Of a stretch of DNA of 64,000 bases, positions 13,912-44,200 are shown piece by piece. Origin of the DNA: Escallonia rubra (lineage: Eukaryota > Streptophyta > Magnoliopsida > Escalloniales > Escalloniaceae). Numbering within the stretch: position 1 is the stretch's first letter; every line of letters begins with the position of its first letter. The stretch covers positions 62,001 to 126,000 of the forward strand of contig JAVXUO010001465.1 in NCBI GenBank assembly GCA_033065855.1. Reading direction: 5' to 3'. Both the position numbers and the translations under genes were made by a program. Under the pieces are notes generated by a model. It made no database searches, had not been told where the DNA came from, and saw only the letters and a program-made list of their open reading frames with translations.

Positions 13912-14239
13912 TACTTCTAAATTAGCACGTCATATCAATCTGATGAGCAACAACTACGCTTTGATTTTACTATAGCTATAGACTTTCATGGTGAATTGTC
14001 CTTCACTCTGGAATGACGGTTCAAGGATTGATGAAGCTCTTAACGAGCTATTATCCTTTCAACAACTAATATATCTCATTCATCAACTACTTTAAAGAAA
14101 CTTGTAGCGACTTGTCACATCTCAAAAAATTGAACACGTAGCATTTATTGAAGTGGTCCCTTATCAAGCATTATATAAGTATTAATAGTGGATGAAGGGC
14201 AAAGGGCATAGAGTGTTATAATCCTTGTTGTGTAAGAAC

Positions 14240-17789: not shown

Positions 17790-18094
17790 TGTAATAATAA
17801 TAAAATATTATATTATTATAATATTTATTAATTCGAGAACAGTTGAGCTGCGAAGGCATGTCTATAAGCACGCTTTACACGTGTTTATGACGTCCGCATA
17901 TTACCTGAGACGCTGAAAATGCAGTAAACGTGCAGTGGAACACTTGATTAATTCAAAGACTCCTGCAAGCCCAAACCCTAACCCTAACCCTAAACCCCAT
18001 CTTCCCCCCTTATTGACGCACACCTCACCTCAAAGCTCACAACAATCTTTGCCATTTCCCTACAAGAACACCCCCCTTCCCCGATGAGACCACC
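17461..18094 (+). promoter_or_regulatory. Promoter and 5' leader region of the RRP6-like gene, with Site II and telo-box motifs
   Basis: AT-rich DNA gives way to a C-rich leader at about 17960. AGCCCA (17968-17973, Site II core) abuts and shares one base with AAACCCTAA (17973-17981, telo-box), followed by further CCCTAA units to about 17997. In plants this pair is common upstream of genes for ribosome biogenesis and translation, fitting an rRNA-processing exonuclease. A pyrimidine-rich leader follows up to the start codon. No clear TATA box at a suitable distance was identified. Confidence 0.6.
17759..17786. repeat. (TA)n microsatellite
   Basis: About 14 TA units in the AT-rich region upstream of the RRP6-like gene. 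Confidence 0.9.
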
Positions 18095-18098
18095 ATGA
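18084..18098 (+). CDS. Minimal upstream ORF (4 codons) overlapping the main start as ATGA
   Basis: ATG-AGA-CCA-CCA-TGA: the stop codon overlaps the ATG of the main frame at 18095. The upstream ATG has C at -3 (weak), whereas the main ATG has A at -3 (CCACCATGA, stronger). It would be translated only if this ATG is in the mRNA, which the sequence does not prove. Confidence 0.45.
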   Translation: MRPP

Positions 18099-18700
18099 CC
18101 CACCGCGAACCAATGGACACCGACCCCCCAACCCAGAAACTCCGAACCCTCACTACCGGCACCGGCCATTTATCATCATCCATAGCCAAACTCTCAGGCT
18201 CTTCTCGCGGCATACCTTCTAACAAAGACTTCCATTTCTATTACAACTTTGACGAATTCAAACTCCCGGTCAAACAAATTGCTGCCAAATCCCACTCCAT
18301 CCTCCAAACAATCGGCTCCAAAGCGACACCGTATCCAGATGACAACAATGATGCCTACGATTGGCTGGTCAACACCAACGACGACGTGTACGAGAAATTC
18401 GACACTTCGCTTGACGAGTTTAAGAGGATCAGGAAGAAAGAGGAGGAAACAGGGGTGAGAGTGGTGGGGCCCGACAATGACGGGTTTCAGTTGGTGGCTG
18501 GGAAGAAGAAGAAAGAGGTGGAGGTCGGTGGTAGGGAGGATAGGGGTCTGGTGGGGGCGAAGGCAAAGGTGCCGTTTCATATAGCGACGATACCGCGACC
18601 GCAGGATGAGTATAAGATACTGGTCAATAATTCGAATCAGCCATTTGACCATGTTTGGCTGCAGAGGAGCGAGGATGGGTCCAGGTTCATACATCCCTTG
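18095..18700 (+). CDS. RRP6L: RRP6-like exon 1: N-terminal exosome-cofactor (PMC2NT-type) region
   Basis: Codes for residues 1-202 and ends in phase 0 before GTTAG. The segment '[20 protein letters not shown]' and the following '[14 protein letters not shown]' are typical of the N-terminal domain that binds the C1D/RRP47-type cofactor. A Lys-rich stretch ('AGKKKKEV', about residue 135) could serve as a nuclear signal. The last residues, '[18 protein letters not shown]', lead into the exonuclease domain. Confidence 0.9.
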
Positions 18701-20361
18701 GTTAGTTCTTCTGGCTCTTGCTCTTGATTTTGATTATCTTTGTTGCTATGGTCTATTGTTTTAGCTAGTCTTGGTGAGATGGTTTTCTGGATATCGAGTG
18801 GGTGATTGTATGTGTCTGAGCTGTATGATCAGAATCTTCCTTTTGGTTGTTTGGTGTGGGGGGGGCATATGGAGTTTTACATTGCAATGGTAAAATGTGT
18901 TGACTCGATCTCTCAACTTCTTCTGTAATGGGATCCGACTCTGCCTTAAGACATTTACCACCCTCGCAAACGAAGCGCCAAGGAACCGTCCCACTCAGAG
19001 GGTACCTGGCAAACCCGCTACATTTGCAAACTATAAACTTCCATGTGCTAGCACTTCCCCAAATCAGTTCTCAAGCCTAACACTGCTTTGAGCATTGAAG
19101 TATGCACGTCAAGTACCTCAAGAGTTTCCGCTGCCCACCAAGAGAAAGGATATTGTCGCGTAGAAAGAGAAATAACACAAGAGCGAACCCTGAAACTTCC
19201 TACAATAAAACGCTTTAGGAGCCTTCTGGCTACAATTCTCCTGATCACTTTTATCACCACAAGAAAGAAAGAGGATACTGGAGCACCTTGTCTGATTCCT
19301 TGTGAAGTGTTGAAAACTTTTCCATTCTCCTATGGTTTTCGGGCTCCCGATGTTTCAGTCACCCGCTCTATTAGGGCGTTCCTACAGAAAGATTACAGTG
19401 ACTGTTTTGGAGCTTTCAACAGTAACTCCTTAGTCTCAAGTACAAAGTAGGTGAGGAGAAGCAGATATGAGCTACTTATCCAAAAAATAAAAAAAAAAGA
19501 CGGATAGAAAAAGAAACAGCAGCTATGAATGTACATGGTTGTGCCCCTTGAGGTTGTTGGTTTTGTCTATAAAATAGTTCTTGTTTCTTTTTAGTATTCT
19601 TTTGATTGAAACATTTTATTGCATTGTATTTGATTTGCTCACCTACTTATGACGTACCATTTGTTTTCATTTCACAATATATAAAGTTTCTCTGTTACGT
19701 TTGAATTTATTTTTATCTGATTGCACGTGTAGGAAAAATTCTCTGTTTTCGACTTTGTTGATACAAGTGTTGGTTGTGCTGAACCAATTAAACCACCTCC
19801 AATAGAGTGCACTCCGTTCAAGCTTGTGGAAGAAGTCAAAGATTTGAAGGAATTAGCTGCTAAGTTGCATGGCGTCGATGAATTTGCGGTAATTTAGCAC
19901 TAGTGAATGATATTCTTTAAATGTATACATTTGGCACATACCGTCGAATCACCAAGATTAAGTGAATGGTATTCTGAATATGCAAAGAATTAACTTTTTG
20001 GCATGTAATGCTTCTTGTCATGAAAATAAATAAGGTTCTTTTAGAAGGATTCGTCATCTGTGACAAACAGTAGCTATTTTACTGGATTTATGGCTAGGTT
20101 TTCCTAGCCCATTGTTGCACTGAGCGCTGTTAACTTCCAGTCTTCATAGCTTTACATCTACTTTGCTTTCCCCTCTTGTCGTTTAATGTCCTTCAAACAG
20201 CTATCTTAGTCTATAATCTAAAGTATTAACAGAATCTTAGTTTGGAGTTTCATGCCGTTGTAAATGACCTTGGGAGCTAGATTCAAACTTTTGTCGACTC
20301 TCTGTCTCCACATATATATACACACATGCATACATCTACATACAAAATGTGTACGTTATAT

Positions 20362-20397
<36 letters not shown>

Positions 20398-23300
20398 TTG
20401 TGAAGGTATAAGGTTCTAAAAGTTTGCTATACTATTCACATGAGCTGATGTAGCAAATTCCTTTACATTCACTGTACAGAGCCCAGTGCCTGCATACTAT
20501 ATTTTGAGTTGGCCTTGTCTGTTCAAGAAATCAGTATATAAGAGTAGCTTGATACAGAATAGGAGCGCTTTCTAGTAGTAAGGTGGAGTTGCGATAGGAA
20601 GTATGGTATTAAATGGGGAAAGGCAACTATTTCTTTAAATGCTTTTGATTAGAAGCAAAAGACATTAGTTTCGGCCTGAGGATTGGCACGCTGGATGCTT
20701 AGCCTTCTACAGCCTACCGAACAATGAATTGGTGCCACTATGTGGTGGTCTATAATTTTCTTTTTTCCAATTTAGAATCAAATTTATGGTAATTTTCTTC
20801 ATTTCAAGAGCTAGTTTGGCCATTCTAAAGCGCGTGAGTGCTATGATGCTATATTCGATCATCAGAGTTTGTTAAAGTTCCTTAGCTGATTGGTTTTGAA
20901 AATTAGAGCTTAAAAAGATTTTGGTCTTTGTTAAAGGAAGAAAAGTTGGAGAAGGCTATTTTTGGTAGTAGATCTTTGGCACGCATTACTTACGCAGGAT
21001 CAAATCTTTGGAAATTGTATTCAAATCAATAGGCTCCTCAGGTGACGCTTAAGAGTTGTGTGAGAACTGTCCTGGTTAAATTTGAGAAAAGAAGTTTGGT
21101 AAAGTTCCTTAGCTGAAACTGTTATTGGTCTGTGTTTCTTAAGGTCATTGGATCCCGGGGGTTTAGTTGTTTATCATGTTTTTATCATCATTTAAGACCT
21201 CTTGAATGTGAAGTTTCACAGTTTGTGGCCTTATGACCATCGTATGGGACTCTCTTTAAATGCTTCAAAGTCTTAGTATTGTAGTTTAAGATACTAGCTG
21301 CCCTTTTAATATGGTGGAAGCTGTTTCAAGTGACACATTAGTGCTGTGTTGTATACTTTTATTTCTATCATAGTTCTAATTTGCCTTCCCTTTGGTTGTT
21401 TCTCTATATATTACTTGTGCCTAGGTTGATTTGGAACATAACCAGTATCGATCTTTTCAAGGATTGACTTGCCTGATGCAAATATCAACCAGGGCTGAAG
21501 ATTTTGTCGTAGATACACTGAAGCTCCGCATTCACATTGGTCCGTATCTGAGGGACGTTTTTAAAGACCCTAAGAAGAAAAAGGTGGGTCTCTCGCATAT
21601 TATGCTCTTTTGCATATAGCCGCAGACTTTGTTAATCATGTATTTTTAACCTCTTAGGTCATGCATGGAGCAGATCGGGATATTATCTGGTTACAAAGAG
21701 ACTTTGGCATGTATATCTGCAATTTGTTTGACACTGGACAGGTTTTCTTTTAAACTCTGACTTTGTTTGTGTTTATTTGGTTTTTTCTGTACTGGACGCT
21801 TGTGGAGTTTTTATCGGAGAAATGTTTCCTAGAGAGAGTAAAACAAATAATCTGCTGCTTTTAGTTATTCTGAAACGTATATGGCATGTCAGCCTGTTTC
21901 GGGTGTTGAGTTTCTTTTGTCGGACTGAGTCGTATTTATTAATTACCTCACTTTTCCTTTTCTGAGGATAAAAGGATATACATTCCAAATAGTGGTATAT
22001 GGATTGTAATTTATTTGTTTTCGTGCTACTATTTTTTGAAAACTTTTGGTGCAATGTGAACTTTATTACTGTGTATAGCTTTTTACTGGTCTATTTTTTT
22101 TCCGGTTCTTTATTTTGCATATTCTCCTCTTTGATGGGGCAGGACAGGACTAAAATGTCGCACGGACAAACTAGGGTAGATCTTTCACTTGACAAACCGT
22201 TTTGACTTTCGGTTTTGTTGGCCTTGGCAAGATTAATATCTCCTGAAGCTCCAACCCGCTTCTTTTATTTCCTCGTTCTTCCATTTGGCATAAAGATACT
22301 AGCATATCGCTGGGGTTCTTTTGACGCATCACCCTCGTATTTATGGTACCAACATGATTACTTGTGTACGTGTGCTCTCTTGGCAAAAGATAGATGATAC
22401 TTTGGGCGGAGAGAACAGGTTGGGACATCTGGCTTGGTGGGTACTTTAGTTTTACTGCGCCCAGGTTTCAGAGTGTGTCATTCTTTCATCCTATGGAGGA
22501 TTTTGGGATCTGCATTGTTTAGATACGTGAACATACCAACTTGTTGCTTGTCAATGCTTTAATACACATGAGGAAGTATTTAAATATATTGTTCAGTATC
22601 TAATATTTCACTTTGTTAGGTGACTGGGTATTGAGGAACAGTACCATGCATTGAACACACTTTTGATGTACACTGCTCACAGGTGACTGACCAGTCAGTA
22701 TTTAGAACCTCAATTGGATTATTTTGCACAGGAACTGAAAGAACAATGGTCAGATGACCAGTGGCAGAGCCACATATATATAGTTGGAAAAAACTTAGCC
22801 ATTAGTACCACTGAATTCTGAAAAATTGATAGGATTAATGGCGAATTCCATCGAAAGATAACCATAAAAACTTAGGGGTTGCTACCTTATGCAACTTGAT
22901 GCGCACAGAACCTTGTGTAGTAAAATTGACGTATGCCTGAGTGCAGTCCCACTTCTTATACAGTTTTGATGTCTTAGGCTAAGATCGATGTTCCTTTCCT
23001 GCTCCATATAGAGGAAACTCTCCTTAGTTAGTGGTTATATTAAAATTTTGAGGTCTACCAATAAAATTTAAGCTAAAGCAATAGTGGCTTTTGCCATGGC
23101 AAAAATGTCTTTGATCAGAAATTTCTTCATACCTTCTCTTTCCCTCGGTAATCAGCAGCCATTGAACTCCATAAACCACCCCTTCCCTGCTCCTATCCCC
23201 ACCATGTTAAATTAGAGATATATATTGTTCAACGGCGATGGGAGTAGAAAGAGAAAGAAGGGGATCTTCGACGATTTACGGGTGGTACAATGAAGATGGC

Positions 23301-26300
23301 ACTTTCAGGGAGATTCACCACGAGTCATTTGTTACTCTATTCTTAGCTTCTCCAACTAGTAGAATTCCAACTTTCTTCATCCCCAAACACAGCCCTTGCT
23401 AGTTTGCAATGATGGATTTGATTGGGTTGCTGATGCCATCTCAGTTGTATTTTCTCTTTGATTTATTTTGACAGTACTCACTTAAAAAGTCAAAAGTCTG
23501 ATTAGGCAATACCAACATCAAAGACAATGAAGATCGATTCAAATGTTTAGGGAAGAGATTCAAGGGAATGCTACTACTGACATCAGTTTATATGCGTGAA
23601 TTTGGGGTAGTGAAAGCTGAGAGAAATTAATAACAGGTTAGGTGGAGTAATAATAGAAGAGGTTTTATTGTCCTTGATGCCGAAACCAAGTAGAACATGA
23701 CTGAAGGTTGCTGTGGTAGATCTGGGCTCTTACCCTTGAAGCCATAATTGCTGTGACTCCAGAAATTGAAGATAACAAAGCTAGAAAGAAATGGTAGCCT
23801 AATCTTGCCATTTTTTCTTCTAACTGCTTCCTTTGATCTGGCCGGATGTTGGTTTCGGTGATGAAGGCAATGGTTTTGTAGGAGAGATAATGAGAGGGAG
23901 AAGAGAGTACAGTTGGAATTTTTTTGACTAAAAGGGCATTATTGTCTATTGTCATTTAGGGTTTATCTTTTCCTAGGGCTTGGCTTCAAAACTTCGGAGT
24001 GGATTAGGGTAGAGGAACTCCCAACTTAGCCTGGTACAAATTCCATTCTATCGTTCCACTTCTCATGGCTCTGGAGTCTCTAATAGTTCGCTTTCCCAGT
24101 CTACATCTTGTCCGTGTTGAAGCACCCGCACCCAGTCTGCACACTGTGGGAGAAAAAGTTAGCACTCACTATTGCTTTACTTTTTCTTTGTTTCCATCTT
24201 TTTGGTATCTTTATTCTTTTGGGTCATAATGTTATTTGATTGTTAGATACTGTAGTAACTTTGTCTTTGTTCCATTTATGAGATAACACCTTTTATTACC
24301 ATTCCTTTTATCTCTTCTCTGACCAGTTCGAATTTTCATCCTTAGGGCTCAAGGGTATTGAAGTTAGAGAGAAACAGTCTTGAGTATCTACTGCACCACT
24401 TCTGTGGAGTTGCAGCAAATAAAGAGTAGGTTTTTCTTTTGGAAATTATTAATATATCTTTACTTGCCACGCACAAACACGGAAAAGAGGAAAAAAGAAA
24501 AAAATAAGGGGTGAAAAAATAGAAGAAAGGAAAACCGTTCTCCAATTGACCAGATCTGTTGTGCAGGTACCAAAATGCAGACTGGAGACTACGCCCACTT
24601 CCCAAAGAAATGATCAGGTTTACCTTAAACCTGTCAGCACATAGTTTACGTCCTAGAAGAATTTTTCTCTGCCATTCTGTGCCTATTTCTCTTTTAAATT
24701 GCCATCTGCTCTAAAAGTATTACCATCTGATCTAGAAGCAAGTTTTTTGGAGAGTGGGCCCAAACAATGTATATCATGCTTAACACTCCTTGCATGTGGA
24801 GAGACAAATCAAGGTGCACTACTACAATCAAGCACAAACACGGGTGCGGATACGATATTTTTGAAAATTCTAGGATACGGGTACGGCGGAGATACGACAA
24901 ATTTTGTAAATGTATATTTTTTTAATATGTAAACATCGTATTGAATTTCGAAACAATTTGAATCTTAAGAATAACAATATATGTATTAGATATGTGTAAA
25001 AAAATATTAATATTTCAACCAAAGTAGTGAGTTTTAAGTTTAATGGGCTCTTTCGTAATTTTTGAAGTTTTCAACCAAATTAGTGAGAGTTTGTTAAGTT
25101 TAATGGGCTGTTTTATATAAATATTAAAATTGTATAGCTGAATAGAATAAAGTTTGTAAGGTATTACTCCCATTTCTTTGAAGTACTGGGGTTAGTTTAA
25201 GTAATATCTTAATTGGGTACTTAAATAAAATGTCAAAAGTCAACCATTTAAATAGGTGATCAATCTCCGGCCAACTTCGATAACATTCCTTGTCTGTTCT
25301 TCTTCTTCGGAGCCAATCGCACCCACTTCGCCGCACGCCGCCTTCGGTCATCGGTGAGTCCTTCTTCCTTCTCCTTCTCCTTCTCCTTCTCCTGCTGCTG
25401 CTTCGTCTTCTCTCCAGTCCCCTCCCTCTTCTCAGCTTCCTTGCTGATGGTTGTAAAAGGTGGTCGATGGAGTCGCTGGTGGTCACAGATCTGCCTCGGA
25501 TACGAGACATTAAAAAAAAAAATCAAAAGTACGAGACGCGCTCCAGACACGCACTCATGCCGCACCCGACGCGCACCCGGTGCTGGTGCTTAACGCAAAG
25601 TGGCGCATCCGTGCTTCATCGGGGAACCAAATGTAAAAGGGAAGAATTGAGCTATGAGAGCTGTTAGAGAATGGGCCGACATTGTATATCATGCGCAATA
25701 TAACCTGATAGGCATCAGAGTTTTAGAATTCTATATACATAAATGTGCCAATTAATGGACTGCATATAGCATCAATATATTGGGGGAACCAAATGTAAGT
25801 ATGAAGAATTGAGCTACGAGAGCTGTTAGAGAATGGGCCGACATTGTATATCATGCTCAATGAAACCTGATAGGCATTAGAGTTTTTAAACTTTGTATAC
25901 ATAAACATGCCAATTATATGTGCGCGCATGCGTAATGGTTATGTTAGGATACTCTCCCATGGTGTAGCCTAACAAATACGCCAGGAAGATTATACTCTCC
26001 CTTGGTGTAGGCCAGTGTTATTAAAGGCGCAGGCGCACCTAAGGCGCAAAAGGTCCTTGGAGCCTAGGCGCAAGGCGCAGGTGCGCGCCTTTTTGAAGTA
26101 AGGCGCAATATTAAAATAAATAAATAAATAATAGTGCATTAAAACAATAAAATTTAAGTAAAAAAAATTCGAAACATGATAATTAATATACTTCCAAATA
26201 ATTGAAAAAGTTTCAAATATCATAACATCATAATATAACAAGCTTCCAATGTTAGAAAAGTCTTAAATCCACTGAATCATAGCAAATCACTAAAATTTAA

Positions 26301-29300
26301 GTGAACATAACACCACCGTCTTCATCATCGCTAAGGGCCAAGGCAACAACGCATTCTTCAAATGGAATCATAGGCTCTAAGTCTGGTAGAGACTCCTCCT
26401 CAACTTCATCTTGTTCATCTACCACGTGGACTAAAGAACTAGATATAGTTGACGTTACAGCCCTATCTGATGACGGCCTTCTTGCTGTTGACCTTGAATG
26501 GTAGTTCGGCTCCGTGCCACCTGAAGGGTCACTTTCAAACACGTCAACGTCTTCATCTGCATCTTCATCAGGCCTCCCAAGCAACCACTCATTACTTTCA
26601 TCGATATTATCCAATACAACAGGATCAATCGTGTCGCGCGAATTGTATCGCCGCTTTAACGCTCTATTGTATTTCACAAATACCAAATCATTCAAGCGAC
26701 TTTGTTCAAGCCTATTCCTTTTCTTGCTATGAAGCTGTAAAGTACAGTAAACAAATTGATTAGTAGTCATTGCATAAGAAATAAATATAAATGTTAGCGT
26801 AAAACTTTACTACTAGATTTAGACTTACATGCTCAAAAACGCTCCAGTTACGTTCACAGCCAAAAGCACTACAAGTGAGACTCAAAACCTTTATTGCAAA
26901 CTTTTGCAAGTGAGGCGTTGATGACCCGTATGAAGCCCACCATTCCGCTATTCAATGCATGAAAATTGCAAAACTAATAAGTGATGTAACTATTCATTAA
27001 TTTACATATCATAATGAGTGCTATAAAACAAAAAAATAATACCTGGTGCTTTTCTATCTCTCATCCTCTTTGATGTGGGATTCCCAAATAAACCCCCTGC
27101 TCTTTTATACTTACTCAACTCATTGTCAATTGCATCTTGTACTGCCATATCAGGGTTCAACCTTTGAATGCAATCATACAAACCCGTCATAATAGTTTCA
27201 TCACTCTCAATGTCTGGGGTTGAGTAGTTATACTCAGGGTTCAAGAAATAACCAGCAGCATGCAAAGGACGATGGAGTTGAATACTCCATCTACTGTCAA
27301 TAATCTCAAAAACCTCCTTGTACTTCAACTCGTTCCCATGGAAAGCACTTGCAATAGCATATTTAGCTTTATCCATAGCCTTGTAAATGTAACCCATTGG
27401 AGGTTTTTTCTCACCATCAACCAATCTAAGTACCGGAATAAGAGGGCATGCTACCTTTAATGTATACACAACATTATTCCAAAATGAAGGCATTAATACT
27501 ATTTTTGCCACTCTTTTGCCTTGTATCTCCTTTGACCATTTGCTATTGCCCCACTCTTCCGACGTAAACATTTTTTTCAAGTTATTTTGCTCTTCATGAA
27601 TCCTTGACAAAGTGATAATGGCAGTAGCAAACCTCGTTTTGCCAGGCTTAAGCAACTCTCTTTTTGCAAATTTCCTTAACAAGTTTACGACACCCGAGCG
27701 ATTATATATGTAAGCATTCAAAGCAAGAGCCTTTTGAAACGTTGACTTCATCTTAGGTAACTTAAATATGTCCTCTAAGATCAAGTCAATGCAATGCGCA
27801 GCACATGGTGTCCAAAATAAGTGTGGATAACCACGCTCCAATAACTTGCCTATCATACAAAATTGCAAATAGATTGAAAAATTAAATGTTGAAGTATCTA
27901 TTAGCTAATAATATTGTATATATTAAAAATTAAGTTACTTGAGCTATACTATATGTAAAAATATACTAACCTGCCTTGACGTTGTTCGAGGCACTGTCAG
28001 TGACAACTTGAACCACATTCTTTGGCCCGACCTTCTCAACGGTCTTCTTAATCAAGTCATACATCAAGTCTCCGGTCTTCGAATATTCAGAAGCATCAAC
28101 GGACTCAAGAAACAAACTTCCTCTAGGACTATTCGCTAAAAAGTTAATTAAAGTCCTTTCTTTCTTTTCCTTCCATCCATCACACATAATCGAACAACCG
28201 CTTTTCTCCCACTCTTCTTCATGATCCTTCATCAACTTACGCGTATTATCCACCTCTTTCTGCAATAGGGTAACCCTAATCTCATGATAACTCGGTGGCT
28301 TTAAACCCGGACCATATTGCCCAATAGCCTCAACCATAGCCGAAAAGCTGTCAAAGTTCACGGCATTGAATGCAATCCCCACATCATAAAAAAATCTTGC
28401 TATTGCACCACAAGCCCGATTTCTCATCTCCTTTTTCGCTTCTTCATTTTCAAAAACCGTGGATTGCTTCATCTTTCTCTTTCTCACTACCTCTTCCGGG
28501 TCCGGGGTGAAGTACACGTCAATTGGGCCCTTAGCCTTTGGATTCCTACAAGGAGGTTGACAAGAACTCCCGCCGGATGAAACTCCCTTCTTCCTGGATA
28601 TCTTAACTACATCATCGTCCTCGTCTTCTTCTTCATCGTTGAAAACGCTATCAAAATCTGGGATGCACTTAGCTAATTCTTTCTTTTCCTTGACAGAATG
28701 TAGCAATTCTTTCATCTCATTTCTTACATGTTCTGGGTACTCTCGACATGTTGAAGCGTTCCTATAACCTCCAACAAGGTGTTGCTTATGTCGATAAATG
28801 CCACCCCTTGTAATGTAATTTTTTGACAAAAATTACAAGTGACTGCATTTTTATCGCTCGGATTAGCCGTACATCCATATTTCCAAGCTGGGTCCTTTGT
28901 ATCAGTGCTTGCGTTCGACATGTATATTCCTGAGATTGAATTATATTGATACTAAAATTGCTTAAAAACCTTAAAATAATACAAAAACTAATAACGTAAA
29001 AAATAAGTATAAAAACATAACCAATATCACCAATGAGTTGATAAGGCACAAGCCAAAAACCATGGTTTAAGTGCAAGCAATAGCCAATCAAGTAAAACAC
29101 TCTAAACAGGATGTGCAAGCAAAAGTTAGCTAGTTTCAACGGAGCAGAGTATCTTTAACCATAAGACTTACACTGAGAATAATGCTAAACAAGATCTTTC
29201 TGACCCCCAAGTCTTAGCCCACTATGGATAATGTAACTAAATTATTATTTTTTTCTTTTGTTGACAACTTAGACCTAATTACTAATTACTTATTACTAGA

Positions 29301-32300
29301 ATAGGTTAAGCATCTTCTCTTAGTGTGACTTGTTACTCAATCAAGTATGTTTATGCATCTTCTCTGGCAAGTGTTTCTCAATCTCTCTCCCATTTAACTT
29401 ACAAAGCCTAATTATTTCCTCATTCATCTGACTTTATTAAGAGGAAGTGCATTTTCATTCAGGAATAGCACCAATGACAGAATACATCAGCAATCTTCAC
29501 ATTAACTGGCATTACAGAATACAGCAGCAATCTTCTAGAGATAAATTACATAATACAGCAGAAATCAAAGTCACATTAACTCAGAAATCAAAGTCCATGA
29601 CCTCTCTATATAAGAGGTTGAATTCTGTCGCATGCAAATCTTGGTACAAGAAACAAATTGGCTGCATGATAACCTCTTGGGGGCAGTGATATTTGACACA
29701 CAAACACTAAAAACACTAATCGTACAAGACACTAAAAACACTGGCGAAGAGGAGACTATGAACATGAACAGAGAGAGACAGAGAGAGACTATGGAGCAAA
29801 AGCTCACCCGAGATAGAGAGAGACTATGAAGACTGAGAGCTTCACTTCACGAGAAGAGCAGCTGCTTCAATTGACTTGACCAGCGGCGGAGCAGCAGGGC
29901 GAACTGGCGAAGAGGAGCAGCAATCGAGGCTGAAGCAGAGCCAGCGAATGGAGCAGCAGACGATCGGCGAAGATGGGAGATGCGACGGCGACGACTGGCG
30001 GTGACGTGTTATGCGACGGTGACGACCGGCGGTGACAGGTTATGCGACGGCGAGGTGAGACTTGAGAGTGAGACCGTGAGAGATTTGTTCGTGAGTCTGC
30101 TCAGCTGATTTGGGGTTTTTAGGTTTTAGTTTTAGTTTGTTTTGACTTGGTAAAGATGAAAAGGAAAAAAAAAATAGTAAGGAAATCAACAGCCCACGTG
30201 AAGCCACGAATTCAAATCGAACGGCTACTATTCTTGCGCCCGGCTTTGCGCCTCCACCACCGCTGCGCGCCTGGGCGCACTGGGCGCGTGCCTTCTTGAA
30301 CGCGCTGCGCCTAGGCCTAGGCGAGGCGCTAAGAGTGAGCCTAGGCGCGCTTTTAGTAACACTGGTGTAGGCCCTTCAGTTTAATGTGTAATAAGGTTAC
30401 TAAGGTAGTTCGGTATATTTCCTTTCTTCGTCATCTTTCCATTCCGTTTTTTCACTGCTGGTATATTCTCGCAACTATCATATGCTTTTTACTTTGTAAA
30501 TCCTTTATAATTCTATCTAAGAGGAAGGAGAAGGAAGAAGAAAATGGGTTCCCATGGTTCGAAGAGACGGATGGTAATCAGATAATTGATGAAGATGTGT
30601 GGAAGTACTTGAATGGGATATTTTTGGAAGAGAGGGAGAGGAGTCCAATGGTGGCTGTGATCCAGGCAAGGTTAACGCCTCACCTAGTCCTAGGCATTGT
30701 CCCTTCGAAAAGGCATACCACTAAAGCCATACGGCACTGGGTCCACTCAAGGCACGCTTTGTATTATGTGAGTGAGTTTTTTTAGGTGGACTCCATATTA
30801 GATAGCATTAATTGAGTAATCATGTAATATCTTGGATTAAAAGTGAGGTAAGTCGAAAAAAAAAGGTAAAAGTCGAAGTGTTTGCGGAAAAAGACTTAAG
30901 TGCATCCACTTTTAGCAGATTTGAATTGTGAAATTCGAGCAACATATCGAAGAATTGAGATTTCATATTGGACAAGCGAATTACTGAGTTATTGATTCTG
31001 GCTTGATAACTGAGTTGCTAAACTCTGTGATGCATGTTTTACAAACTGATGCTTTATATCGTTAGTTTTGATGTTATAAGAATTATTTTGTCGAGTCTTG
31101 CTTCGATTAGGTGCATGCCTGTGCCTTGCGTCTAGACTCCGGGAGACCTTTTCGCTTTGTGTGCTCCTGCGCAACAACAATATGTGTATATACGTGTGTA
31201 TATACACACACACATGTATATATATGTATACGCGTATGCATACATGTACGCGCAGATATGTATACATATTAATAAGCCATCTTTTTGGTCCAACGCATGC
31301 AATACCAACCTATCCTTCCTATGCGGACAAGCGGGTCAGTTGGAAATTTGACTTACCAATTGCCCTGAATGCAATAAAAAGAATTTTGAAATGTCATTCT
31401 AAACCTAATCGGGCAAGTAAAGGGTGGCTTAGTTCTGTCATAGGTTGGTCTAAAGAATGGGAGTTGGCTTATATAAATAAAAAGCTATATATATATATAT
31501 ATATATATATATCTGATCTGTGTGTAGAGCTGATTCCTTGCCACCGTGAGCAACTTAAGCTAAATTGTCTCACCAGCGCGGATGGACTACCCAGATCAGC
31601 TTTTTTTTGAGAACTCCCCGTCCCCATTATGGGCCTAACTGTCCATTTGACTAAAATGGTCCTCTGTAGTCGCTATTGGAGGGCTACTGTAACCGTTATA
31701 GGGCTTGACAGACCCATTCTGGGCGGACGAACCATCATTATTTGCAGCTACTTGCCTCCCCGTTTAGCTCCACTCAAGCCCTTGAAGATCCTTCTCGATT
31801 TAATTCATCCAGCTCTAGTCAAGTGAGGTAGATTTGTGACCTTCCTGGCTTATTGGTATCTAGGTTTTGTAATCTAGGAAAGTTACGAGGAGCGTGGTTG
31901 TCATGTTAATTTTAGTGTGAGATTAGACCTGGCAATCGGGTAAAATCGCCGGGTACGGGTTAAACCGAGTCGGGTAATAATTACCCGATTTTTCCCGGGT
32001 AGTCTTTCCAATGTTCGTACACTACCCTTGCGGGTCGGGTAAACCCGCGGGTTAAATATTACTTTTGACATTTTTTTTCTTACATCAAATAATTAAATTC
32101 TTGAACTTATTTTCTTTTTCCTCCTCCTTCAGTACACAAACACAACTTCAAAAACCATTACACAATTTCAAAATCCATTACGCAACAATCGCAACTTCAA
32201 AATCCATTACACAACCACCACAAGATTTACTGGAAGTCTACCCAACAACCACAACATTGAAATCGAGATTAGGCCTTCTCGAATTAACAAAATAAAAAAA

Positions 32301-35173
32301 TAATCAAGATCAGGACTCTCAAGAACAGAAGTGAGGATGAAATAACTCATAATTGTTTCTCCTTGCTCTTGCGAAGGCCTGACCTTGGCTCTTGAGCAAT
32401 GGTCACAGCAGATATGGTCAGCAACAGACAGATCTGGTCGGCGACAGGGTGACGGCACCGACCAGTTGCTACGGTGACGGAGGAGTGACGACGGGACTGG
32501 CGGCGGAGCTGCGGTTGATCCGTGGCGCAATGGAGTATTGTAGTTTGGTCACGACTTTGGTGGAGTTGTGAGAGAGATACTTGAAAGGATGAATCTACGA
32601 GAGAGAGAAAGACTTGAGAGGATGAATTTGTGAGAGAGGGGATCTGTGACTATTGTGAGGGTGAGAGACTTTGAGAGAGGCGGCAGAAGTGAGAGACTTT
32701 GAGAGAGAAAAATGAATAGGAAAACCCTAAAATCATATGTATACTCAAATAACCAGTAAACCCGGGTACTCGGTATCCAACCCAACCGAACCGAAATTTA
32801 CGGGTCGGTTCGGGTACGAGTCTGTTTTCAGCGGGTCTCCTTATTATGTACCCGTACCCGGGTTTTTTGAGCGGGTACGGGTAGACCCACGGGTCCGGAT
32901 CAATTTTTGCCAGGTCTATGTGAGATTATGGTTTGTAGTGTGATTATACGTGTTTGAAATATTTTTATTGTTATGTCTTTTTTTAAAACTTTTTTCTGAA
33001 ACTTTTTATTTGTCATGTTTAGAAAAATGTTATTCCCTTCGTCCCTAATTAATTGATCATATTTGCTTTTTGGGCTGTCCCAAAAAAATTGATCACTTTC
33101 CAAATTAAGAAAGATGTTGTAGGTGTTTTTCCATATTTACCCTTTTTACACTTTTTTAATTCTACTTCTTTCTCCGCATTTAATTTTCTACGGACCCATT
33201 TTTCTCTCTTCTGACCCATTTTTTTCCCTCTCTTTTGCTTTCTTGCGGTAGAATGGAAAACTCATATAATATGACTCATATCTTAAATAAGCGTGCAAGT
33301 CAAACACGATCAATTAATTATGGACGGAGGGAGTATAATTTTGAAACTAAAACATATGATTTGTTATTCTTAGGTCTTGTTTCACAATGTCTGATATTTG
33401 AGCAAGCTCAAACCAACCACTAGATGCTAGTGACCCTTATCTAGGGTGAACTTTCAAAACATTGGAAGAAGTCGAAGGATGTTTACGCTTGGATTTGAAG
33501 AGACTTCGTTTTGAGATAAGAATCAAGACAAATAGAACAAGTAAGATAACAAAGAAAGTATGTTCACAGTTATTTGAGTCTCATATGGGTCGACTACCAT
33601 TCCAAAATGGCAAAGATGCCATTTAAGATGACAATGACGACGGAGGAACAAGCAAGAGAACGGGGCTCTGTTTTGTGGGTACAGAGTGTAAGGTCAAGAT
33701 ATATGTAAGCTATAACTAGAAAGAAGATTGTGGGCTTATTACTAGTCAGGAATTGGCGCATTGTCACTCGTTAGTAACACTTTCAATGGTGAGTGAAATG
33801 CCTCAAATACAAAAAGATTACCCCTGTTGCAAGGTGCTTGATTCATACAGCGAGTGCAACACGTATATTACCTACTGGCATTATTATTGTTCTCGCTGAA
33901 CAAGTGGGGTCATTGAAAATTTGTATTTCGATGTGACATTCGTAAGGTAGTTTGAAGCCAAAGACGAGATGCGTTTTACCTCAATGATGCTCAAGCCACT
34001 GAAGCAGATGCAATGAAAGTCTCGGGGATTTACGTAAGTCTAGACGAGGAGCACAGAGTAGCGACAATTTTTTGGGTTGATGGGTGTTTAGATTGCAAGT
34101 CAATTATTGGCTCCAAAGATTGTACGAAGTTAAACATAAATAGATTAGCGTTTACACCGAAGGGTATTTTGCTGCGTGCAACTGTTATGTAGGTGAACTA
34201 TGAGCATAAAGGGTATCTAAACAATGCTTAAAAAGCGGTTGCAGAGATATTCGTGAGAAAGGGCTGCTGATTTTACAACCACGTATAAACAAAGAAGATT
34301 GGTGCTTGAGTCCCTGTTGGAGTTGAATGGTGCGAAAGTTATATGAAGGAGATGTACGGACAATAGCAAATAGAGCTAAAAAAATTGGGCCGATACAATG
34401 TACAGAAGTTGGCTACAGAGAGCACTACTTCATGCGAAGTTTATTCTTTAACAAACAGCTTTGCTTGTGAGGAAATGCATAGAGACTACATTTTAGACAT
34501 GATAGAAAGGGATGCAATAACATGTGTTTGAATGAAGTTTGAATTCTTTGGTGTGTTGTGTGGACACATTTTACGAGTTTTTACTCAAAAGAATATGAAG
34601 GAAATCCCCAGGAACTCGTAATGACGCGGTGGACTGAATTTACAAACAAGTTACATCGTACTTGTTGCCTTTCCAGAGTATTGCAGAGTTTCAAGGAACA
34701 GAGATATTTCGTTATAATTATCTCATGACCATGTTCACGAGTTTGTCTGTCAAAAGGTGCTTATACAAACAAAGGCGGGATATAAATATCTCCCAATCTA
34801 GCCCAGAACAAGATCCCGTCATGGACAACTTGATCCCAACCTTGACCAGTTGGTCTGCGTCATCAAAAAACTTAATGATATGGGCGATATGGGTATGAGG
34901 AATGTAAGTCGTGATTGCCCGTTTCTTCTTTCCATCTGAGCATCACTGTTACCCGTTATGTTTTAGCAGTCTCATTAGATTAGTGCTTTAGGATACGTAT
35001 CTTGCCTACCACGTTTTCTAGTCTTCAAAAGTTAGATGTAAGCATTGATGACCGTATCATCTGTCCAACCATCTACGGCAAGGGTGGAAAGACTGCCATG
35101 GTTGATTTGATAATTTTGACCAGAATAATAATCTTGAGACAGAGATGTTGTGGTGGTGGGTTTTTGGGGGTGT

Positions 35174-35205
<32 letters not shown>

Positions 35206-38200
35206 GGGTTGTTGTCAAAGCAGTTCTGATCAACGAATTTCTTCTTTTTCAGTCTCAAGGGTTTCAAAGGATAACCTGCAAGCTCAGCGCGGGGTATATT
35301 TTCTTCGATACACTGTGTCCTTGGTCTTGAGGCTCTGACGACGGGATGTGCATTGCTTCTGATACACACAAGTTCTCCAAGTTCAAATCTCGTGTGACTT
35401 GACTTTGAAACTGTTGTATCTCACCCATCTTGCTGACAAATCCGTCTCACCCACCTCGCCAATTCCTTAATTTATACCCGAAAGGCTGCCCCTATAGGTG
35501 CTCTCAAACTGTCCGCACCCCTAATATCTCAGCTTGGACAAGAAGATCATTTCCCATTGCCTCGAGAAGATCTTTTGGCTTGGTTAACTTCTTGTAAAAT
35601 GCGTGGCTGACATCAAGCTACAAAAAGACTGATTAGTAGTAACTTAAGAGAGTTTAAGACCATGCTTGAGAAAAAAATACAGTTTTAGATAGAGATTACT
35701 CATGAGATCAAAGGCTACTCTTAATCTATTACACTATTGGGCTTGTATTTCTCGTCTCTGTGTCACGATGCAGGGTTTATTCTCTTTTGGGTTACACGTT
35801 GGTATCGGGACCTTGTGTGTGGGGGTGTTTTCTGTGGGGTTGGGGGGGGGGAGGGATTTCAGTTCGCCCAGTTTTTAGCAAGAAACAATAGTATGATTAT
35901 TCAGACCGGAAATTGGACTTGTTGACCATTCTAACACCGGCTGGTTGGTTTTACAAGCATCGTACCCGACCCATCTCTAGCTGCTAAACCTCTTTCTGTG
36001 TGTGTACAGTTCGCCCAGCTTTTAGCAAGAAACAATAGTATGATTATCCAGACCGGAAATTGGACTTGTTGACCATTCTAACACCGGCTGGTTGGTTTTA
36101 TCGTACCCAACCCATCTCTAGCTGCTAAACCTCTTTCTGTGTGTGTGTACAACGGGGGCGAACTAGTTTAAATCACAAATTGCCCTCATGTATGCACAGG
36201 CTTTTGTTCCAGGAATTGCACTCATCCCATAAATTGGTCAATTTGACTCTTCACTATCCCCACCCCTCCATCCCCCCCTCGTGGAAGAAAAGGTCCTTGG
36301 TTCGTTTCTATTAACTTCTTAGAGTGGGAAAATAATTTGGCCTTTTACAATTTGTTGTGCTTCAGAATATCAGTTTCTGAGGTACAAGCATTCCATGCTC
36401 CACTGTTTATTTTTTGCAACAGTGGTTTATATATGATTTTGTTAGTTACACTCATTTCTTCTCTTGTTTTCAGTCGACCTCTTTAATGTTTAGTTGCTCA
36501 TGATTTCTGCTAAGTGACTCTGTCGCCAAACTTTGTTTGAGGCAGGTCTTGTTTGGTCGTGATTACTGTTCTGGTGCATTTTGTTGTTAAAGAGCTTAGA
36601 TTTTGTTGCCGTCCTTACATTTTCATTAATTTAGTTATCAATCTTTATGTTGATAGATATGCCAGAGAGGATACACACTATCTGTTACATATATACGATC
36701 TAATGAAAATCAGTTTACTCTCGTCATCTTCTGAGTCTGAACATTTGGAAACTCCTCTGGTAGAGGTATGCTGTCACAATTTTCTTCTTTATAATGAATA
36801 TGCTAATGCATAAAGCTATGTGGCTGTTGGTTTGGTGATGGGTCTAATGTGCATATGTTATTTCTGCTCGTGTATATAATGCATGTTACTAGTATTAATT
36901 TGTATGTACTTAGAAAGAATTAAGTGCCTTAATTTTTGTGTAATGCATATGGTGGTGTAAATGTAAGTTTCAATCACTTGCTTGATATTAAATTGATATA
37001 CCCTATATGTCTAAGGTTGTAAGTTTCTAGTCTATGAAGCACCGGCAACGGGTACGCGTCGGGTGCGGCACCAGTGCTTGTCAGGTTTGTGTCCAATTTT
37101 TTTTTATTTTTTAAAATCTTAAATATCGGGTGCGTATCCGGCAATTTGTGACCACCGGCCACTCCAGCGACACCGGCGACCACCGGCAAGGACTCTGACG
37201 AGAGAGGAGACTAGAGAGAAGAAGTAGAAGCAACAAAAGAAGGAGAAGGACTTACCGGCGACGGCCACGGTGTGCGGAGTGCGGAGTGCGGCCAGAGAAG
37301 AAGAACGGTCGGTCGGTCGATGTTATCTATGGAGATGAGACTCTTGACACAGTTTGTTATTTTATGTTAAGTACCCATTGTTAAGTTATTACATAAACCA
37401 CCCCAGTACTTCAAAGAAATAAAAGTGATACCACATAAAAACTTTATTCTTTTCAAATTTACAATTTTAATATTTATAAAACAGCCCATTAAACTTAACA
37501 AATTCTCACTAATTTGGTTGAAAGCTTTAAAATTTACGAAAGAGCCCATTAAACTTAAAAACTCACTACTTTGTTTGGAATATTAATATCTTTTTACATA
37601 TATCAAACACATATATTATGATTATTGAGATTCAAACTGTTTAAAAATTTAATACTAAGTGTATATAATTAAAAAAAAAATTTATAAAATTTGCCGTATC
37701 CCCGCCGCACCCGTATCCTAAAATTTTCAAAAATGCAGTATCCGCGTATCCGCACCCGTGTTGTATCCGCACCTGCATCCGTGCTTCTTAGTTTCTAGTA
37801 CTTGGTTACAATGGGTTTATGGGCTTGTCATCATTTTGTGCAGACCATTGTATGGATACCCAAAACCTATTTAAGTGACCCAAAAACCTTTCCTAAGGGG
37901 GCTAAGGTACTAAATACTCATTGAACTAATTGAATATTATTGCTACATAAAAGCTAATTATTCATCTAGTCAAGTTATGTAATAAAAACAAATGAATGAT
38001 TACTATTTACAAAGAAACGGCATCGAAATGTTTTTGACATTGAGAACATGTTTTTGGATTGATTCTCAAAAACAGTTTTTGGATGAAAAAATACAGAATT
38101 TTCAAAAAAAACAGTTTTAATTAGTGTTTAGCAGAATTGGTTTCCGTTTGACAAAAGTTGTAGAAGCAGTTGCTGAAAGCTTTGAAAGGTGTTTGGGCAA

Positions 38201-41200
38201 AACGTATTGAAAACAAATTAAACAATTTTACTGCAGGAAATGACCAAGAAGGGATTTAAAGAACATGCTAGATTCTTGATGTTTTCGGTTACCAAAAATT
38301 ACAAATAAGCAACTGTATATTGTGGCTGCTTCTTCATCCTTTTGTATTTTCATATCCCCTGTAAATATTTTTAAATGAAAGAATGGTTAATGACACAACT
38401 TGAACTTAGCAACAATTAACTTTGAAAGAAAGCGCAAAGAGCCAAAACATAAAAAATGGTTTAGAAAATAGTTCTCCTCCAAAATTCTAATAATCATGTC
38501 GTTCTTGCATCATTATACTGTTAGTGAAACCAATTAAATCTCTTTCACCATCTAGTCGATGATTTCCTTTTAATAGGACCCAAAGAGTTAATATTTATTT
38601 ACAAATAATGTCTCAGGATCGAAGAGATTAACAAACTAGAACATATTGATAACACATCCACAATCTTGATGCATAATTCCTCAGCTTACATCACAAATTT
38701 GGTTACATGGTATCAGATATTCATCTAAAACCAATTGCGTCACAAATAACATCTTGTACATTCATTATGTAAAATTCATCTCCAATCACAACAATGAATG
38801 TATTGCCTCCCGCTTTGCAATTATCAATAACACACCTAGTTGCGACCAAACCTATTTATAACATTGTTTGCGTGCCCAACAAAACAAGTGCCCCGTGGTG
38901 TACCATAGCTCCTAATGCATTGCTACAAAAAGATCAACATCTTTCAATTGAATCAACGTGGAGACCAAAGAAAACAAAAGTGGCTTTCTTTTCACAAAAA
39001 GCATCAAATATCTGCTTGCATACTATATAGTTTCCTGTGGTGTCGTCTAAGGCCCCGTATATGACAGTAAAAGAAAAGAAAGTCAACTTTCTTGCAACTT
39101 TTAAGTGTTCATTTAGCAAGAAAGTTATGGACCCATTTTCCCCGACTTTCCCAAGATGATCACCTTTCCCGTGTGTGACAGTAAAAGAAAAGAAAGTCAA
39201 CTTTCTTGCAACTTTTAAGTGTTCATTTAGCAAGAAAGTTATGGACCCATTTTCCCTGACTTTCCCAAGATGATCACCTTTCCGAAAAATGTTTTCTTGC
39301 TAAATTCACAAGATTTTGCAAGACAGTATCATAACAAAGTTATAGTATATTCCTCATCAGCTTAAACATTCTTAGTATAATATGCTGAATAATGTAAGCT
39401 AATTTTTCTTAGTTCTGTTTTTCAAAAGTAGAAATAAAAGTAAGTTCTTTGTCTTAGATTTTTTTAATTCTATTGAAGATACTAAAATGACATATACAGA
39501 TAATTTTGTTTCTGAAATGCATTAGTGAATGGTTTTTGTTCATAAACTAACTTTCTAGACACCTGATCGACCAAATTTTGCGACATCCAAAAAAAAAAAA
39601 AAAAAATATAGATATAATTTTTTATTTCAAAGAAAATCCATTGTCAAATGAACACGACAAGGAAACTAATTTTCTTTTCTTTTACTTCACTTTATTTCAT
39701 TGTTCTCAAGAAACACTTAATCACATGACATTCTTGACAAATGAATGGAGCCGAAGATGGAAGAAGTCCATGGAAGCAACTCAGCATCTTCAATTCATGT
39801 TAAGCAAATTCATACCTATGATGAGAGGACCCCTAGTTTAATGTCCCCGACGAGCCTCCAATAATTTCTCAATGAGCCTCCGACTTCTCTCTTCCCCTCC
39901 CTCTCTTTCTTTGTGGTTGCACATATTGTTATCAAAGGCGCACCTACGCGCAAGGCGTACTCCCTGCACCTCGCCTAGGGCTAGGTGCAGCCTCTTCAAA
40001 AAGGCGCACGGCTTGTGCACCTAGGCACAAGGTGGTGGTTGAAAATGGCAAAAAAAAATCTCAATTTTTGATTTTTGCATCGTGGCATCATCTCAATCGT
40101 TCGTTATTTTTAATTCTTTGCTTCATAACATGATAGATCAATATCTAAACCACAAAAAAAGTATAAAAACCTAAATCCCTAATCAACCAATTCTCGTATT
40201 GTTGTTCATTGTGCTAGCGTCCTGTCTTCAATTGTTACCCTTTTTAAGTAAATCTACTCCTTCACTTCACTTTGTAGACAAAGAAGATGAAATTGAGGAG
40301 AAATCTCTACCAGAATTGGAGCCTATGATTCCTTTTGAGGAAAACATTGTTGCCTTAACCCTCACTAATGATGAGGATGACGTTATCATATTTACTTAGG
40401 ATTAATTATTTCTCATTGAATTTGAAACTTTTTCTAGTGTTCAAAATTTGTTAAATTGCCATGTTCTGAATTTCTGTGATTTTATTGGTTTAATGCCTAA
40501 TATCTATTTATTTTTATTTTGCGCCTCACTTCGAAAAGGCGCGCGCTTGTGCCTAGGCTCAAGGGACTCTTTGCGCCTTAGGTGCGCCTGCACTTTTAGT
40601 AACTATGGTTGCACACAGTAAGAATAGTGAAACCCTCTATGTCATTTGTCTAAAAATGTGAGGGTAGTACTTTTGTTGGTCAAACCTATTTCTCCAAACA
40701 CCATAGATCTGATTTTGGAGGTTTTTAAAACGCTTTGGTTTTTGGCCAGGTACCACACAAATTGGTTTTGAAATGGGTTTGCCCACTCTAGAATCAATTC
40801 CAAACATCCTTTAAGGCATAAATTATCCTACACGATTGCTACGGTTGACTAACAGTTTGGATAATTGAAAGCTAGAAAGTTGGCAGTACTTAGTTACCAA
40901 TAGTGAAAAGGATCAATCTATACCAAGTGTTCAATCTTGCCTAGAACCTTTTGGAGGTCAGCTCCATCATTAGAACATTCTACAATAACCAGACTCCTTC
41001 AATTCTGGGGGAGACCCTGGCCTAGAACCTTTTGTAGGAATATTCCATAATAACCAGACTGGAGGCCCTGGCACCCACTTGCCTCTCCCTAAAATCCGTC
41101 CCTGCCCTGCAATTGCACTCTAACATGTGGTTGTTGCCATATTTTGCAATGGGCTCCTGTTGCCTCATACACAATCAGCAACACAAGAACTCTAACGGGG

Positions 41201-44200
41201 TCAGTGATATATCCTGCCTACACTTGTTAAAGCACCTGCAGACAAGATAGAACTATGCAGAGCAGATATTGTCTTAGTGCTGACAACTCTAGTGTTAGTA
41301 TGGCCGTTACCATTATCACAGTGGGCCTAGTGTTGGCCTGTGTAACGCGTTAACATGTGGTTGTTGACATACTAAGGCCCCAACTCTTAGCCAGTTCTCC
41401 CTCTTCTATGAGTAGGCCCTAAGGAAACATATTAGAAGCATATACACAAGCACAATTATGAGGTGGGTCCACTTACAAGTAGGGTGGAGAACTAAAATTG
41501 TACTTTTGACCCTTGACATGTGTAGGTGGTAATGGCATTAAGCATGATAGCTTTGATGAGCATGTTATCATGTCCCCCTCCCTCCCTCTATTCGGCATAT
41601 TTCTTATCTATCTCATCAGCAAACAGTACAACCACACGCACCTCCATGGACCCCCCCTTCTACCCGCGTCCCCCTCTTACGTACTCCAAATACATTTCTC
41701 CTCGTATTCCTACTTCCCTCCTTTTTACATTACAGCAACAAAAACCTCTAGCCTCATGCACGACTACCATGGCCAGACACTCAAGGAATATAACTTCTAA
41801 CTTATCAGGCTGTGAGAGAGAGGGAAAGTTATGATTTTCAACTTGTTTTTGTATCAATTTCAAAGCTATAAGGTGTCACATTTATTGCAGTTCTTTGTTG
41901 ACTATGCACTAGGACTTGCATCAGGATAATTAGGCAAAGAAGTTAACGGATAGGTTTTTTTTTTATTTGAAATTGAGAAGTCAGTGTGGATATCTTCAAT
42001 TGGACATATAGGGCCACACATGCAACCGCATTCTATTGATTTGGATCCATCAACTTTATATATATAAATTATATGCCACGAACTTCCATATAAAACATCT
42101 ATAAGAGTATTTCGGCAACTGATTACTCTTGCTGCGGTGGGGTGAGTCAGTGAGAGAGGGAGGGAGGGCGTTTGTTAATGGAAAAGTTGCTATTTACCTG
42201 ACTCCTTAGAATCTTTTAAATTACAGGTATACAAGCGCAGTTATGATATATGCATGCAGCTTTATGAGAAAGAGGTCATGACGGATTTTTCTTATCTCTA
42301 CATATACGGGTAACCCTTCTGTTCTCTTTGGTGCAAGGGCTTACAATTTCCTTAGTTGCTTGAATAGTTATCATGTGTATCTTAACAGTGACATGAGCAG
42401 TGAAGTTTTTCATTTCATATCTTTACTCCTCCTTTGAGCTTCTGCTTTGTTGACACAGGGTTCAGGGTGCCGATCTCAATTCTCAGCAGCTGGCCATTGT
42501 TTCAGTAAGTTATATTCCATTCTTCTCTCCCCAAGTAATGTTTTTCCTTTAATTATTGTTCGTTTTTTTTTAATGCTTTTGCTTAATGTTACTTCGATTT
42601 GCAAGGGTAAACCTACACATGCCTCATTCTTTTTTTGGGGTGTGTATGGGTTTGTGGGGGGGTGCGAAGGAGGGGTGTTCTGTGTTACAGCCGCCAATGC
42701 GCATATGTTAGAACAAGTTGGATAGGATATTTCAGTAACTGGTTAGCAGTCACATTCCTTTTTTTTTTGGGGGGGGGAGGGGAGGGAAGATAGAGGGGTA
42801 TTCGGTGTTGCAGCCGCCAAAGCACGTATGCTTGCACAAGTTGGATAGGATATTTCAGTAACTGGTTAGCAGTTAATTTCCCTTGTTCCGCATTCTTTTA
42901 TGCTAATTTTCTTTAATATTATCTCCTGAATGGCTTTTAGGGGCTCTGTGAATGGAGAGATGTTGTTGCCCGTGCAGAAGATGAAAGTACTGGCTATATT
43001 CTGCCAAACAAAACTCTTCTCGAAATTGGTACTTTAAAACTAATGCAACTTTTATCAATGTTTGATTTGCTTTGTTTCCTTGCCACAAGTTAGTTGTCTA
43101 AGTGTTTCTTGTCTTATTTTATTTTCCTTCTTCTGTTAATTTAAAGCTAAACAGATGCCGGTTACTGCAAGCAAGCTTCGCCGTGTTCTGAAGTCGAAGC
43201 ATCCCTATATTGAGCGGAATCTAAGCTCTGTTGTTAGCATCATTAGGCATTCCATCCAAAATGCTGCTGCATTTGAAGCTGCTGCTGAACAACTTAAGGA
43301 AGCTCGCAAGGAATCAGTAAGACGTCGTGATATTTAACCTCCATGAATTGCTAAGGGTTTGACATTAGACGTTGCATATATACATGTATGTGGCTGAGAA
43401 TAAACTCAGATAAAGCTGTGAAATTAGTGATGAGTGATTATTTTCACATTAAGACAAGTTTTTTGATACTTTTCTATAGGAATGAGTGCATCTTAAATCT
43501 CATTGTCTGCTGCGGAAAAAATAAGTGTAGGCCTTACACTTGCTGAAATTCAATTTTTGTGATTTTGCAACTTGGAGGGGAATTGACTTTGTCCTGCACC
43601 TCCTTTGCTAAAGATGGCTGAAAGTGCTGCTAAAGCTTGAATTTAGCTTCAGTTAGGTAAATTATTCTAGAAGGTTTTAGTATGACATTGAATAAATGCT
43701 AAGGCTTAAAATCTTCTGTAATCAATTTTAAGTTCTTAGAAATAATATCTTGCTGGTTTTTGGCATGTGAACACGGGGTCCTATTTCAAGGATTATGTAA
43801 TGCTTTGGAGTGCATTACTTTCATCAAATTCTTACTGGGAATATTATATGCTTCCTGTGCTTCGGCTATCTATCTCAAAAAAAGGAAAAAAAAGGGAGTA
43901 AGAATGAAAGGAAGGAATACTTTTACACACTCAACATCCTCTTCAGCCTGTTGACGCCCAATTGGGTCATAGCATGTGGGCAGTGAGGAGGTGTTCACTT
44001 GACTTATCATATTACGCAGTCTGCAAAACAGGCGTCTCCGTGTTGAGCAGTGGCGATTCACTTGGTTTCCAAGTTTTTTGGCCAATTGATTTGAGAACCT
44101 AAAGTGCTAATTTGTTTGCTTGCTAAGCATATAAAGGTTTATTACCAAATTTATTTATTTCTGTACCTTAATCTGATGTGATGCATCTGTTACTGTACAA

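Follow-up and report, generated by a model that had tools for sequence, protein, structure and literature searches.

Crossing inverted transposon pairs in the introns around a catalytic exon of an RRP6-like gene in Escallonia rubra

The two longest introns of an RRP6-like exonuclease gene of Escallonia rubra (Escalloniaceae) both contain a copy from each of two transposon families, and in either family the two copies stand in opposite orientation across exon 7, a short exon holding a catalytic motif. The gene lies in a window of 64,000 nucleotides (nt), the whole stretch of DNA analysed here (assembly GCA_033065855.1, contig JAVXUO010001465.1, positions 62,001 to 126,000 of the forward strand). 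The pair here called A (A6 in intron 6, A7 in intron 7) is predicted to form a strong duplex in the unspliced RNA, and the pair called B (B6 and B7) crosses it. The sequence shows the elements and how they are oriented, their capacity to form duplexes, the crossing of the pairs and the reading frame; what the arrangement would do to the RNA is inferred. Exon 7 is probably spliced in normally, with the pairing neutral or of trace effect; low-level back-splicing or skipping of exon 7 is possible, and a selected regulatory role is unlikely. The features concerned, in window positions, are as follows.

18095..45799, plus strand: coding span of the RRP6-like gene (14 exons, 898 amino acids), with PMC2NT, DEDDy exonuclease and HRDC domains
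24567..24617, plus strand: exon 6, 51 nt
24830..25619, plus strand: A6, the intron 6 copy of family A, with terminal inverted repeats; search for a target duplication negative, 3' end moved outward on comparison with other genomic copies
26013..30364, minus strand: B6, a 4.35-kb hAT-type element with a broken coding region, in intron 6, target duplication GTGTAGGC
36657..36765, plus strand: exon 7, 109 nt, carrying Tyr380 and Asp384
37032..37791, minus strand: A7, the inverted family A copy in intron 7, 8-bp target duplication TTTCTAGT
39923..40606, plus strand: B7, a 684-bp non-autonomous copy in intron 7 with ends in common with B6, target duplication GGTTGCAC
42227..42309, plus strand: exon 8, 83 nt

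Of the 43 matches with an E of 1e-5 or lower that blastn gave when the window was compared with itself, six lie on the minus strand, namely pair A, two stretches of pair B, one match of 57 bp (7570/51814) and two in simple repeats. An earlier note on this DNA had described two families with one inverted copy each in introns 6 and 7, and the self-comparison recovered both, with coordinates almost to the base. In pair A, 24837-25591 corresponds to minus-strand 37762-37037 (E 1.8e-130); with short flanks included, the alignment has 574 identities in 748 aligned positions and 111 gap columns, and without flanks 552 in 703. Perfect 8-bp target duplications support the bounds listed above for A7, B6 and B7, and the extent given in that note for A6 seems to need correction: its 3' end lies probably at about 25619 and not at 25591, as six of seven other copies (L002 to L005, L007 and L008, not L006) align beyond the latter position. 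A target duplication was looked for at the boundaries of A6 and none was found; a perfect 8-bp duplication is also present at one of the seven other family A copies compared (L005). Just 3' of A6 stands a 134-bp direct repeat with 88% identity (25621-25754 and 25783-25916), and a diverged stretch judged by eye to be similar lies 5' of it near 24750, so that the insertion site of A6 may be rearranged. A search of the genome (566 Mb, 3222 contigs), in which the copy counts are lower bounds and unscored candidates are unconfirmed, points to a high-copy family A, with 890 first-look candidates, 40 of them scored.

The likeness between the members of pair B is confined, in the matches found, to the element ends: the left arm (26017-26450 against 40603-40246, inverted, E 2.7e-33) and the other end (30253-30342 against 40042-39953, E 3.7e-6) have 286 of 391 and 106 of 158 identical positions when aligned with short flanks. 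B6 looks like a dead hAT. Pieces of DUF659, a domain linked to hAT elements, were found on its minus strand at 27966-28832 and 27002-27904 (two of the three pieces scanned), each of the three minus-strand frames holds 75 to 97 stops, and a hAT C-terminal dimerisation domain was not among the Pfam matches of the three pieces. Moreover, B6 and B7 are bounded by the perfect duplications GTGTAGGC and GGTTGCAC, and B6 has inverted ends of the CAGTGTTA type; 8-bp target duplications together with terminal inverted repeats are features of the hAT superfamily. The possibility that B7 is a private deletion product of B6 was considered and rejected, given that B7 belongs to a high-copy family of about 690 bp (1,496 first-look genomic candidates, 40 scored, 39 besides B7 at 81-88% identity).

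The capacity of these copies to pair is considerable. The gain on cofolding over separate folds is -451 kcal/mol for pair A, with 612 inter-arm pairs and a longest uninterrupted stack of 58, and -188 and -43 kcal/mol for the left arm and the other end of pair B. The earlier note had allowed that the copies might be too dissimilar to form stems; pair A at full length falls to -12.9 kcal/mol when one arm is reversed, and the left arm and other end of B to -10.6 and -9.0 kcal/mol, and the identity therefore proves sufficient. The outer half of A yields -290 kcal/mol inverted versus -10.9 with one arm reversed, and 12 random windows of intron 6 set against intron 7 (about 347 nt) range from -0.8 to -15.4 kcal/mol. 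Pairing across the families, assessed for A6 with B7 and for the left arm of B6 with A7, amounts to nothing to speak of (-3.4 kcal/mol each). Along the stem of pair A, scored in 50-nt bins with G-U pairs included, the best stretch is 24980-25129 (143 of 148 paired) and the worst 25230-25329 (51 of 82).

Further, the order along the RNA is A6, B6, exon 7, A7, B7, and the two pairs cross and are not nested: pair A closes 24830-37791, and pair B begins within that loop and ends beyond it. The suggestion that each pair could base-pair around exon 7 thus stands for each taken by itself, as each gains on cofolding, and fails for the two as nested joint stems, since joint pairing of A and B would require a pseudoknot with kilobase loops. 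In a pseudoknot-free fold of 5,992 nt, which joins 24560-26500 to 36600-40650 and excludes 26501-36599 and the far end of B6, there are 606 A6:A7 pairs and zero B6:B7 pairs. The crossing and the choice of A by the fold together argue for one serious stem and not two additive ones, and the idea that the two pairs reinforce one another is rejected on the same grounds. A scan of the window with 4227 Rfam families gave no match to a known RNA family at gathering score.

The gene around these elements is intact. Its 14 exons, joined through GT-AG introns, give a frame of 898 amino acids without internal stops; the model is one chain chosen from 64 open exon chains that differ at neighbouring splice sites. 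The protein contains PF08066 (PMC2NT, residues 36-110), PF01612 (3'-5' exonuclease, 234-396) and PF00570 (HRDC, 453-520), all scoring above the curated Pfam cut-off and in the order of the RRP6/EXOSC10 family, and in the PDB its first 544 residues match Exosome component 10 best (E 2.2e-89), with RRP6 entries coming next. The residues YARED at 380-384, encoded by exon 7, line up with YARDD in the YARDDTHYLL stretch of Exosome component 10; in domain order and in this Tyr-x3-Asp motif the protein is a member of the RRP6/EXOSC10 exonuclease family. The motif is the last catalytic one of the DEDDy nucleases. The 14-exon model agrees with the position of exon 7 proposed earlier (36657-36765, 109 nt, with Tyr380 and Asp384) and with the expectation that skipping it would remove both residues and shift the frame, the stop falling at codon 397. 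With an alternative exon 7 donor at 36759 the frame is also open, and loss of the resulting 103-nt exon would likewise shift it. Introns 6 and 7, of 12,039 and 5,461 nt, are the longest two in the gene. As the frame of 898 residues is intact across 14 exons, exon 7 can presumably be spliced in as usual. A run AACCCTAACCCTAACCCTAAACCC at 17974-17997, about 100 nt 5' of the start codon (18095), resembles a telo-box, a common motif in promoters of plant ribosome-biogenesis genes.

The splice sites were scored with a leave-one-out matrix built on the 13 introns of the gene itself, a small training set that makes the ranks indicative only. The donor of exon 7 ranks fourth and its acceptor sixth of 13; weak exon 7 sites as a cause of skipping are rejected on this mid-strength standing. 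The donor of exon 6 (CAG/GTTTAC, 24618), which adjoins the 12-kb intron 6, scores lowest of the 13 donors, and the exon 6 acceptor ranks twelfth of 13. A7, the near arm of pair A, starts 267 nt 3' of exon 7, in keeping with the roughly 270 nt estimated earlier, and A6, the far arm, ends some 11 kb 5' of the exon 7 acceptor (11,066 nt from 25591). A6 starts 220 nt 3' of the exon 6 donor, and the exon 8 acceptor lies 4,436 nt 3' of A7.

As to origin, the elements are separate insertions of high-copy families and not the outcome of one event, because the 8-bp target duplications differ at A7, B6 and B7. One event that duplicated a single intron segment in inverted form would explain why both families are present in both introns, but it would leave the order B-A in one of them, where A-B is found in intron 6 and in intron 7 alike; nor does it fit the differing target duplications or the copy relationships, as A6 is nearer to a copy elsewhere in the genome, L002 (84% over 18-666 of 762, 79.9% over nearly the whole element), than to A7 (74.6%). 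Such a duplication is rejected on these three points, and its probability is negligible. The Kimura two-parameter distance between copies is 0.255 for pair A, 0.298 for the left arm of B and 0.395 for its other end. Naively, the probability that intron 6 receives one of two copies and intron 7 the other is 0.21, falling to 0.105 when they must also be inverted; no inference is drawn from these values, since the introns are long because of the insertions and the pattern was picked post hoc. That selection has maintained the pairing to regulate the dose of RRP6L is suggested by nothing apart from the arrangement itself and is extremely unlikely: transitions show no bias toward keeping a G-U pair, those that keep one standing to those that break one at 40:39 in pair A, 22:31 in the left arm of B and 11:12 in its other end (73 keeping and 82 breaking among 155), as expected in the absence of such selection. 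This is a weak test, as A6 resembles L002 more than it does A7 and part of the divergence therefore predates the insertions.

Overall, the most plausible history is one in which four old, separate insertions of hAT-type DNA transposons (8-bp duplications being shown for three) would have entered the two longest introns of the gene, both families coming to lie in opposite orientation by chance and the RRP6-like gene still working. In the unspliced RNA, A6 and A7 would be able to pair over about 750 nt, and B6 and B7 would pair only when A is unpaired or as a pseudoknot. Exon 7 would most likely be included, with at most a few exon 7 circles or transcripts joining exon 6 to exon 8, the latter ending at the premature stop.

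Such a largely silent role accords with much of what has been reported on circular RNAs (circRNAs) of plants. In rice, complementary flanks of at least 18 bp were reported at 20 of 2354 circRNAs, and miniature inverted-repeat transposable elements (MITEs) or such flanks at 92, within a survey of 500 bp beside the back-splice sites (PMC4647462). The soybean report gives complementary flanks at 2.7% and quotes values of 6.2% in rice and 0.3% in Arabidopsis (PMC5514102). In tea such flanks are described as seldom present, the flanking introns being long and repeat-rich (PMC9861842); in cotton, flanking inverted sequences are said to equal those of random exons in length and complementarity, with fewer repeats and longer introns (PMC13008959). 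The Moso bamboo report describes natural circles without obvious flanking pairing and constructs in which 139-bp inverted introns were used (PMC10787125). Moreover, circularisation is reported to be easier for longer exons in fission yeast, and in human as cited there (PMC4479058), and in mammals the commonest dimers are said to come from young transposons (PMC8516420), which the members of pair A, 23% diverged, probably are not. In a literature search on RRP6 and circRNA, none of the titles listed dealt with circular RNA of an RRP6 gene.

Several considerations weigh against a silent role. Pair A is far stabler as a duplex than other stretches of the two introns, and the window contains no further strong inverted copy to rival it. 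The rice survey, at 500 bp, would miss a far arm such as A6, 11 kb off, and plant circRNA exons typically have long flanking introns, as the tea, soybean and cotton reports state (PMC9861842, PMC5514102, PMC13008959). LINE1-like pairs are reviewed as occurring at circRNA regions of maize, with a figure of 17.3% (PMC11276256), and hAT and PIF/Harbinger MITEs as enriched at circRNA regions of poplar, where altered MITEs in constructs led to less product (PMC12595863). The G-U test carries little weight either, part of the divergence being between subfamilies. It is conceivable, then, that A6:A7 pairing puts exon 7 in a loop of some 11.4 kb and raises its back-splicing, or exon 6-8 skipping, to a measurable degree, whereupon the skipped RNA, with its stop at codon 397, would be degraded and the insertions would lower RRP6L output. 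The strength of the duplex relative to the reversed-arm controls, the choice of pair A in the 6-kb fold, the closeness of the near arm to the exon 7 donor (267 nt), the weakest of 13 donors at exon 6 and the reported use of inverted introns in rice and bamboo constructs to drive circles all point this way, but exon 7 lacks weak splice sites, the exon is short at 109 nt, the left arm is some 11 kb away and such flanks are seldom reported at natural plant circRNAs; we regard this outcome, loss of output included, as rather unlikely.

A different fate for the duplex, that it serves mainly as a Dicer-like substrate, with small interfering RNAs (siRNAs) from the A arms arising from unspliced RNA or lariats and intron methylation being affected in place of splicing, is improbable. 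It would suit a stack of up to 58 pairs within 612 inter-arm pairs, and precedents are stated for rice, where a construct with inverted introns was used to overexpress a circRNA and its hairpin was reportedly cut by Dicer (PMC4647462), and for MITE hairpins, reviewed as siRNA sources (PMC12595863); however, high-copy families may yield siRNAs anyway, and the pair need not matter. More elaborate still, the crossing pairs might be mutually exclusive folds acting as a switch, A6:A7 favouring the looping out of exon 7 and B6:B7 forming another loop, with the duplex balance setting the amount of active RRP6L and exosome activity on the skipped or circular product feeding back. This scheme as a whole we hold to be very unlikely. 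Neutral or trace pairing, with exon 7 spliced in as usual, continues to be our preferred reading.

The window holds further repeats. A scan of 23000-44000 for short inverted repeats found one in intron 6 with 42-nt arms, 83% identical and 235 nt apart (33024-33065/33301-33342), which by eye is small and MITE-like. Some 500 nt 5' of exon 7, at 35860-36146, a stretch of about 146 bp is directly repeated with 94% identity, and intron 7 has a 116-bp tandem duplication, 97% identical, at 39054-39283. Beyond the gene, direct repeats with 89% identity over about 600 bp, 2.2 kb apart (47180-50648), begin with TGTTTGCA and enclose a stop-to-stop open frame of 203 amino acids (48287-48898) without a Pfam match. 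At 10713-13920 two directly repeated stretches of about 580 bp, with 95% identity, stand 2 kb apart, and at 493-1146 a fragment of a Mutator-like element (MULE) transposase (E 9.4e-13).

If the pairing does act, this plant locus would show cleanly, as a natural experiment, whether an exon with catalytic residues can be looped out by old DNA-transposon pairs in its flanking introns, a question to which plant and animal circRNA data give different answers. Only one exon is involved, without it the frame shifts and active-site residues are lost, and of the two pairs one clearly dominates; ordinary RNA-seq could therefore give a yes or no. If the pairing does not act, the gene would be one more working gene with transposon-filled introns.

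Finally, the arrangement is a fresh instance of an already known kind. With the inverted Alu and other transposon pairs described in mammals (PMC8516420) it shares same-family copies inverted in the introns flanking an exon and predicted to dimerise; unlike those Alu pairs, the copies here are plant hAT-type DNA transposons with arms about 12 kb apart and about 23% diverged, recognised in the DNA sequence. The LINE1-like pairs of maize and the hAT and PIF/Harbinger MITEs of poplar (PMC11276256, PMC12595863) are likewise plant transposons in flanking positions, the hAT superfamily being common to poplar and to the present case, although the maize and poplar cases rest on transcript data, and the poplar case on altered constructs as well, whereas ours rests on the DNA. 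The host gene has its own known relatives in RRP6L1 and RRP6L2 of Arabidopsis (PMC4161302), which are likewise genes for RRP6-like nucleases of the nuclear exosome.

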